Positions 22,134 through 24,303 of a stretch of DNA of 37,071 nucleotides are shown here, piece after piece. Location: positions 1 to 37,071 of the forward strand of contig JACPYA010000072.1 of the NCBI GenBank assembly GCA_016196295.1. Direction: 5' to 3'. The position numbers and the translations under genes are program-made. The notes beneath the pieces are model-generated. The model did not search any database. It was not told the DNA's origin and worked only from the letters and a program-made list of their open reading frames with translations. Origin of the DNA: Candidatus Peregrinibacteria bacterium. Its GTDB lineage: Bacteria > Patescibacteriota > Gracilibacteria > Peribacterales > Peribacteraceae. Numbering within the stretch: the stretch's first letter is position 1; every line of letters starts with the position of its first letter.

Positions 22134-22433
22134 TCAGTTGTGTTCCGCAAACGATGTGAGATCATCGTCGGGTGCAGCTCTATTGCTGATTTCTTTTCCG
22201 CATAGGAAACAACGATGCACGATCATCCATCCTTTCTTGCCGCTCTGGTCGAGGGAGACAGGTGTCATGAGTCCTCCGCAGTCCGAGGCCCGGTCCCCAG
22301 GACCCTCGGCATCAATGTGTTTGGAGTACAGGCAATGCGGACAATGATTGCGATACGTTCCACGTGGGAGTGGGGCTACGTCCTTGCCGCAATGTTCACA
22401 CGTGAATGATTCTTGGCGTGCGATGAACGTCAT
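22134..22433 (-). CDS. RNHCP domain protein
   Basis: FTCEHCGKDVAPLPRGTYRNHCPHCLYSKHIDAEGPGDRASDCGGLMTPV. Confidence 0.88.
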   Translation of the reverse strand: MTFIARQESFTCEHCGKDVAPLPRGTYRNHCPHCLYSKHIDAEGPGDRASDCGGLMTPVSLDQSGKKGWMIVHRCFLCGKEISNRAAPDDDLTSFAEHN

Positions 22434-23083
22434 TCGGTGAATGGACTGATATAAAGAAGATCGGGATGGTCCTTCCAACGTGAAACATTGCTTTTGATAT
22501 ATGTTCGAATGGCGTTCAATGCTCCTTCGGATCTCAAACATCTTTCATAGAAGCGCGTTTGCCAGTGAAAATCGTCGTATCCCATGGCATGAATTTTTTT
22601 GGTACATGTCATTTTAAATTGATTGATAACAGCTCCCAGAGATTTAGGTACGAGTCTTAGCCTCCGTTCGTTCGTAGAGACGCGCGAGTCGCGCATCTCG
22701 TTTGAAGAATTTCCATTGATTTTTGTTGTTTGTTGTTTTTTCGAGACGTGCCCATGGCACGTCTCTACCAACGAACGGTCAAAAATAAGAATCCCGTGTA
22801 AATGATCTGGCATCATTACAAATTGATCCAATCTCGCGTGAGGAAAATGATTGGGTATTTCTTTCCAATATGTTTCGACAATTTTTCCCACATCCGACAT
22901 CGTCATCTTTCCTTTCTCAATTTCTCCAAACCAATGCAGTTTTCCCTTCGTGCAGATCGTTACAAAATAACAGGCGGAGCTTGAATAATCCCAATTTTTC
23001 ATTCGATTCGTTCGTATCCGATATCTTCCTTTGAAGAGGAGAGATGTGCCAGTTGCAAGATCCATGACAAGCATTCTACACAT
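22430..23083 (-). CDS. REP-associated tyrosine transposase-like protein (RAYT)
   Basis: YFVTICTKGKLHWFGEI, FVMMPDHLHGILIF, FHWQTRFYERCLRSEGALNAIRTYIKSNVSRW; start uncertain. Confidence 0.82.
   Translation of the reverse strand: MCRMLVMDLATGTSLLFKGRYRIRTNRMKNWDYSSSACYFVTICTKGKLHWFGEIEKGKMTMSDVGKIVETYWKEIPNHFPHARLDQFVMMPDHLHGILIFDRSLVETCHGHVSKKQQTTKINGNSSNEMRDSRVSTNERRLRLVPKSLGAVINQFKMTCTKKIHAMGYDDFHWQTRFYERCLRSEGALNAIRTYIKSNVSRWKDHPDLLYISPFTE
22664..22778. repeat. REP pair in inverted orientation inside the RAYT linker
   Basis: ccgttcgttcgtagagacgcgcgagtcgcgcatctcg ... cgagacgtgcccatggcacgtctctaccaacgaacgg. Confidence 0.7.
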
Positions 23084-24170
23084 TGCATTTGAAGTGCATC
23101 ACGTCCCCGTCCTGCACGACGTAGTCTTTACCTTCCTGTCGGAGCTTTCCGGCATCTTTGGCTCCAGATTCGCCTTTAAACTGAACAAAATCTTTGTACG
23201 ATATCGTCTCTGCGCGGATGAATCCTTTCTCGAAATCCGTGTGGATGACGCCTGCCGCCTGCGGCGCCGTCATGCCGCGGGTGATCGTCCATGCGCGCAC
23301 TTCCTTCGGTCCCGCGGTGAAGTACGTGATGTAGCCGAGCGCCGCGTAGGCGGCGTGGATGAGCCGGTCGAGTCCGGACGATGTCACTTTGAGGTCTGCG
23401 AGGAAAACGGCTGCGTCCTCCGGCGACAGTTCCTGGAGGTCTTCTTCGATCTTCGCCGAGATGATGATCACCTGTGCGGACGGCTCCAGTTTCAGTTGCG
23501 ATCGCACGGCGTCCGGCGTCATCACACTCAGTTCGTGCTCCGCGACGTTCACGGCATAGATCATCGGTTTGGCCGTCAGCAATTGGAACGCATGGGCGAT
23601 CGGCCTCTGCTCCTTTTCGAGCGTCACGGTGGAGGCCAATTTCCCTTCTTGCAGCGCTGCTTCGATTTTTTTCGCGACGGCGAGCTCCGCGATCTTCTCT
23701 TTGTCCCCCGTGCGCGCCGCTCCTTCCATCTTTTCCATGCGCTTCTGCAGGTTCGAAAGATCCGCCAGCGCAAGCTCTGTTTCGATTGTTAGGCGGTCGC
23801 GCACCGGATCGACGGATCCTTCCACGTGGATGACGTCGCCACCCTGAAACGCGCGCACCACGTGGCAGATGGCATCTACTTCGCGGATATGACTGAGGAA
23901 GGCGTTCCCCAGCCCCTCGCCTTTGCTCGCGCCCTTCACGAGCCCGGCGATATCGACGAACTCGATCGCGGCGGGGATCACCTTCTCCGGCTTCACCATC
24001 TCCGTCAGGATTCGTAGCCGCTCATCGGGCACTTCCACGATGCCGACGTTCGGGTCGATGGTGCAAAACGGATAATTCGCCGCCATCGCGCCTTTGCTCT
24101 TGGTGAGTGCATTGAAGAGCGTCGATTTTCCAACATTCGGTAATCCAACTATTCCTATCTGGAGTGCCAT
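23076..24170 (-). CDS. ychF: Redox-regulated ATPase YchF
   Basis: MALQIGIVGLPNVGKSTLFNALTKS, NYPFCTIDPNVGIVEVPDERL. Confidence 0.95.
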   Translation of the reverse strand: MALQIGIVGLPNVGKSTLFNALTKSKGAMAANYPFCTIDPNVGIVEVPDERLRILTEMVKPEKVIPAAIEFVDIAGLVKGASKGEGLGNAFLSHIREVDAICHVVRAFQGGDVIHVEGSVDPVRDRLTIETELALADLSNLQKRMEKMEGAARTGDKEKIAELAVAKKIEAALQEGKLASTVTLEKEQRPIAHAFQLLTAKPMIYAVNVAEHELSVMTPDAVRSQLKLEPSAQVIIISAKIEEDLQELSPEDAAVFLADLKVTSSGLDRLIHAAYAALGYITYFTAGPKEVRAWTITRGMTAPQAAGVIHTDFEKGFIRAETISYKDFVQFKGESGAKDAGKLRQEGKDYVVQDGDVMHFKCNV

Positions 24171-24303
24171 GCATGAGTGGGGAAAGTTGAGAGTCCTACG
24201 ATTCCAATTTGGAGAGCCATGAGAATGGAGAAGAAAGCCGATTTACCCGCCGTAGCCCCGCGTATGCGGGGCGAAGGCGGGCGATACCGATCTGAAGAGC
24301 CAT
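24171..24303 (-). pseudogene. Two tandem damaged copies of the ychF 5' end
   Basis: ATGGCTCTTCAGATCGGTATC (start 24303) and ATGGCTCTCCAAATTGGAATCGTAGGACTC (start 24220), homologous to ATGGCACTCCAGATAGGAATAGTTGGATTA at 24170. Confidence 0.75.
24255..24283. repeat. REP palindrome in the distal ychF fragment
   Basis: cccgccgtagccccgcgtatgcggggcgaaggcggg. Confidence 0.6.

Follow-up and report, generated by a model that had tools for sequence, protein, structure and literature searches.

The window, a 37,071-nucleotide stretch from the genome of an uncultured, ultra-small Candidatus Peregrinibacteria bacterium, carries an intact ychF gene, and upstream of it two broken copies of the ychF start, one of them split by a REP hairpin. 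The same layout recurs at other protein genes and in other genera of the Peribacteria. We tentatively read the two broken copies, A and B, as displaced ychF starts that may have been kept as coupled leader open reading frames (ORFs), and as members of a recurrent class in this group.

All features of the locus lie on the minus strand. The intact gene (copy C, 23076..24170) starts at 24170 and encodes 364 amino acids; it appears in the ORF list and is recognized by Pfam and by NCBIfam TIGR00092, scoring 482 bits with the latter, whose cut-off is 279. Copy A begins at an ATG at 24303 with codons 1-7, MALQIGI (atggctcttcagatcggtatc; 24283..24303), followed by a 36-nt REP hairpin (24246..24281; fold -28.7 kcal/mol) and, 3' of the REP, by the remainder GKSAFFSIL (ggtaaatcggctttcttctccattctc; 24221..24247). 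This tail shares 17 of 27 positions with ychF codons 14-22, a match equalled by 1 in 100,000 shuffles. Copy B (24171..24220; ATG 24220) reads MALQIGIVGL and then STF, without PNVGK (codons 11-15). Beyond codon 10, shuffle comparison found no significant likeness of copy B to ychF, so that the "deletion" rests on its first 10 codons and its position. Finding ALQIGI without a mismatch behind a given ATG has a probability of about 3e-8. The original prediction had thus described the sequence correctly, with three successive ychF 5' ends (24303, 24220 and 24170), a REP in copy A and PNVGK missing from copy B; it had also allowed that the upstream segments might come from another gene, which their peptide identity with ychF rules out.

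Measured against copy C, copy A differs at 5 codons and copy B, over its first 10 codons, at 6, and every one of these differences is synonymous. Only about 130 nt separate copies A and C, and 5' of ychF lies a divergently oriented SLH/sortase gene. The frame of copy A stays open through the REP, giving a putative leader ORF of 35 amino acids (24196..24303) that reaches its stop 22 nt beyond the copy B start, while the frame of copy B gives a second putative leader ORF of 21 amino acids (24155..24220) that stops 13 nt past the ychF start.

The hairpin belongs to a dispersed, GC-rich REP family with 16 forward and 15 reverse matches in its own genome (G000) and 7 in G030, the genome of the nearest relative (L004); a reversed-pattern control for this search gave 0 matches. 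Directly downstream of ychF is a gene for a RAYT-like REP-associated tyrosine transposase (22430..23083), whose protein matches NF047646 with E=1e-12 and 48 bits, under the curated cut-off of 80, and had no match in a Pfam search. It is the sole match to this protein in its own genome, and L004 likewise carries a RAYT-like gene downstream of ychF. Elsewhere, at L152 and L160 (G000:C58 and G030:C2), REPs sit inside the loops of other hairpins, perhaps because such loops are preferred sites. A longer second repeat family, starting TCAA followed by TCCGACTTCGTCCCGCAAGTGCGGGACTACGCCGGACAAGGGGC, was seen at many sites, several of them at contig ends, including G000 REP loci such as L142, L143, L146, L147, L149, L154 and L156; it is possibly an IS200/IS605-like element.

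Aligning the ychF upstream region across relatives, as the original prediction had suggested, recovered copy A and its REP in L004 and another broken copy in a third genus. In L004, whose YchF is 79% identical, a single upstream copy begins MALKIG and runs into a homologous REP at the same place and then a tail, after which the intact ychF starts (MALKIGIVGLPNVGK). This tail aligns with that of copy B in the window (13 of 5000 shuffles were as good), and the two are probably shared. Since L004 has them as well, copy A and its REP, and probably copy B too, are older than the split of the two genera. Both hairpin and open frame have been retained between L004 and the window despite base changes, among them an exchange of C-G for T-A in the stem. 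The third genus (L005) has a broken copy, MALHIGIVGLPNVG, with a different hairpin, together with an intact start reading MALKLGIVG. In about 30 further ychF loci of Peribacteria, a strict scan turned up no stub. Together with the nearly exclusive synonymous differences, the sharing with L004 bears out the earlier suggestion that the copies are old or were separately acquired. As a separate observation, in G020 (L028:3001-4600) a second ychF 3' end (DVMHFRFNV), written in different codons, lies about 340 nt downstream of the first, and a small ORF, METGKIIFTG..., without a family match lies between the two.

The layout, in which the first 20-42 nt of a gene are followed by a GC-rich hairpin and by the complete gene restarting 50-137 nt downstream, was also found at hisS, pgm, a glycosyltransferase gene, a gene of unknown product beginning MSEFGGP and, in another genus, rpsL. 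A hisS stub with its ATG is present in four genera (G000, G022, G028 and G002), and a degenerate one that has lost its ATG in a fifth (G035); the hisS orthologues of twelve other genomes have no stub. Since sister genomes such as G030 lack it, the hisS stub is dispensable. The pgm stub is present in three genera (G000, G022 and G002), and the distribution across hisS and pgm orthologues indicates that the stubs are partly old and patchily retained. The hisS leader ORF (MAELQFRTPIPLRSA...) and its hairpin (L293:8135-8233, L323, L325 and L328) are common to several genera, and in three of them the ORF terminates just ahead of the hisS start. The glycosyltransferase locus, which like the tRNA cases described below came from reading the flanks of other REP copies, pairs the stub MKLLMISGD with a restarted MRLLMISGD and contains three REP units. 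In the MSEFGGP gene, stub and restarted start differ by 1 nt in the first 21.

Because a peptide scan admitting GTG and TTG starts was swamped by repeat proteins, we scanned at the DNA level for stub similarity plus a hairpin, over stretches amounting to roughly half of the window's own genome. This gave 12 matches against 0-2 in permutations, although the 12 count one locus repeatedly and include a few probable chance matches; those at L006 and L030 look like chance or terminator matches. Recurrence at other genes and genera, together with the sharing by L004, rules out a one-off event at ychF. Of the original proposal, REP insertion followed by re-duplication of the 5' end, the REP within a displaced ychF start therefore stands, while the single event gives way to a recurrent and partly inherited class; its second version, repeated renewal of the start region, came close to the mark but did not anticipate recurrence beyond this gene or that the remnants appear to be used. 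The remark that the damage falls exactly at Walker A proved misleading. Hairpins lie about 7-42 nt from the start in hisS, pgm, the glycosyltransferase gene, rpsL and tRNAs as well, which rules out Walker A as a specific target; they meet its codons in ychF because the YchF P-loop lies near the gene start, inside this interval. Searches of the largely open-access journal literature turned up no account of such a layout.

Across stubs and intact starts, 28 of the differing codons are synonymous and 5 non-synonymous, where a neutral model expects about 26 non-synonymous, although most stubs were first found via peptide similarity, which biases towards synonymous differences. Between the hisS stubs of G000 and G022 there are 5 synonymous changes and 1 non-synonymous, the codons encoded by the hairpin included; in the comparisons of G022 with G002 and of G028 with G000, non-synonymous changes outnumber synonymous ones. 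The stop positions are a sign partly independent of this bias. In 13 of 14 stub ORFs the frame is open through the hairpin and stops within -35 to +25 nt of the downstream ATG, compared with 29% of 2862 control upstream ATGs that stop in this interval (binomial P of about 1e-6, for an interval set after the data were seen). The 14 stub ORFs represent 6 genes with non-independent orthologues, and all 6 fit when these are collapsed. The exception is the hisS stub of G002, and the pgm stub ORF of G022 overlaps its gene start by 4 nt (ATGA). A simple TANNNT scan for a leaderless -10 box, comparing stubs with genes, was uninformative.

These patterns suggest a sequence of events. A REP-like hairpin may have entered the first 20-42 nt of a gene, or accompanied their disruption, and the gene would have gained a complete start anew, about 50-140 nt downstream. 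Because the divergence is almost only synonymous, this second start would have come from a diverged homologue, probably by recombination, rather than from a fresh tandem duplication. The old start would remain as an upstream ORF that we infer to be translated: ribosomes would start at the stub ATG, translate across the hairpin, where the frame is open, terminate next to the second ATG and begin again on the full gene. At ychF such coupling would run in series, from A to B to C. Two agents are plausible, namely a RAYT that would insert the hairpin, with subsequent rescue of the damaged gene (a RAYT-like gene is adjacent), and homing cassettes resembling the GIY-YIG units linked to tRNAs. A broader version seems doubtful to us but is worth stating: that Peribacteria keep self-copying leaders, upstream ORFs that would carry the N-terminus of the downstream protein, a mobile hairpin and a ribosome hand-over, that these would be re-formed repeatedly at housekeeping genes whenever a mobile hairpin breaks a gene start and a second start is provided by recombination, and that the same process would break tRNA copies.

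The tRNA genes bear on the most serious rival. In the two best-sampled genomes, broken self-copies lie within 350 nt of at least 10 of 60 tRNA genes, and these copies carry GC-rich hairpins, mostly at D-, anticodon or T-loop positions. Examples flank the tRNA genes at L170/L246 (G000:C79:5292-5364) and L199/L243 (G030:C2:56366-56438), and further ones L181, L197, L166, L173, L168, L179, L172, L187, L201 and L209; in some broken copies the anticodon stem-loop is swapped for another hairpin. The tRNA stubs probably share the origin of the protein-gene stubs but cannot have a part in the translational role.

According to that rival, the stubs are scars of homing cassettes: an endonuclease would have cut near the gene end, repair would have brought in a synonymously diverged, uncut end, the old end and a hairpin would have been left behind, and the ychF endonuclease would since have been lost. 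This would directly account for the diverged second start, and a GIY-YIG gene does occur within the same layout at seven tRNA loci, lying between stub and intact tRNA at L247, L250 and L263 and between intact tRNA and a displaced 3' part at L246, L243, L232 and L244. Most GIY-YIG matches adjoin a tRNA (9 of 13 in G000 and 8 of 11 in G030). These small genes (about 75-140 codons), which sit beside single tRNA genes and often between the intact tRNA and a displaced fragment, are candidate tRNA-targeting homing elements. At L230 (G000:C24:13931-14131), a GIY-YIG gene is flanked by two copies of a 54-nt 5S rRNA end. However, none of the GIY-YIG matches listed for 59 genomes is close to ychF, and in about 30 loci none was seen to separate a protein-gene stub from its intact start. 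We therefore do not favour homing cassettes at ychF; neither do they predict stops beside the second start. As an explanation of the stubs we consider them unlikely, while as an agent they stay in contention because the layout is shared with the tRNA GIY-YIG units.

Another history, in which the gene start was duplicated in tandem, a REP was inserted and the surplus copy decayed neutrally, strikes us as improbable. It invokes simple events, and it suits the MSEFGGP gene, which looks recent given its single difference and the sequence just 5' of both starts, which appears somewhat alike by eye; the glycosyltransferase locus is likewise a tandem array of identical units. Neutral decay would not, however, be expected to leave almost only synonymous differences in older stubs, open frames that cross the hairpin and end at the next start, or stubs retained in several genera.

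We give similarly little credence to a regulatory leader whose stub peptide or hairpin would respond to how much downstream product is present, so that the resemblance to the N-terminus would be the sensor of an autoregulatory circuit. Stub peptides do match the start of their own gene in a lineage-specific way (MALQ with MALQ, MALK with MALK and SQP with SQP), and the hairpin and open frame kept by both the window and L004 through the C-G to T-A stem exchange are in line with such a role. On the other hand, an Rfam search for known structured RNA matched no family, it is difficult to imagine one sensor serving a GTPase, a synthetase, a mutase and a ribosomal protein, the tRNA cases involve no translation, and the stub is absent from many relatives. 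Finally, misassembly joining strain variants is very improbable even though every genome compared is a metagenome assembly, because separate assemblies of related genera show the layout: ychF stubs occur in three, of which two share the homologous REP in the same position, and the hisS and pgm stubs recur in others.

If displaced starts are indeed kept as coupled leaders, housekeeping genes of Patescibacteria would repeatedly have their starts hit by mobile palindromes, the host would survive, and the damaged start would become a coupled leader ORF. Selfish hairpins would then have a concrete and testable way to alter how translation begins in supposedly streamlined genomes. The findings also carry a warning for annotation, in that a look-alike start stands 50-140 nt upstream of the true one at ychF, hisS, pgm and rpsL, and many pseudo-tRNAs have a real tRNA gene as neighbour. 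The tRNA-GIY-YIG units may in turn represent a family of tiny mobile elements that replace gene ends.

Several known systems resemble parts of this layout. As in REP/REPIN systems with a RAYT, the palindrome is short, GC-rich and dispersed in about 30 copies, with a RAYT-like gene beside ychF. REPs within coding regions are known (PMC3733652), but here the REP sits in a displaced start with a complete second start after it, and REP-dependent re-creation of a start is not described in the part of the REP literature covered by that source. Rickettsia palindromic elements, which the same paper mentions (PMC3733652), lie inside protein-coding genes and keep the reading frame open, as the hairpins of the Peribacteria stubs do, but they reside in the working gene, whereas here the palindrome is in the stub and the working gene is the restarted copy. 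SegB of phages T4 and T6 is a free-standing GIY-YIG endonuclease encoded beside tRNA genes, which it cuts, driving changes in tRNA copies (PMC13096335). The small GIY-YIG ORFs beside Peribacteria tRNAs are similar, but these putative endonucleases are chromosomal, number one for each tRNA, come with displaced tRNA fragments that bear hairpins, and are not found at ychF. For initiation itself, E. coli offers precedents in 5'-terminal AUGs and SD-less coupling (PMC4965119, PMC9955659). As in translational coupling generally, the stop of the upstream ORF overlaps or abuts the next start, but the Peribacteria ORF differs in opening with the downstream protein's own N-terminus and in spanning a mobile hairpin.
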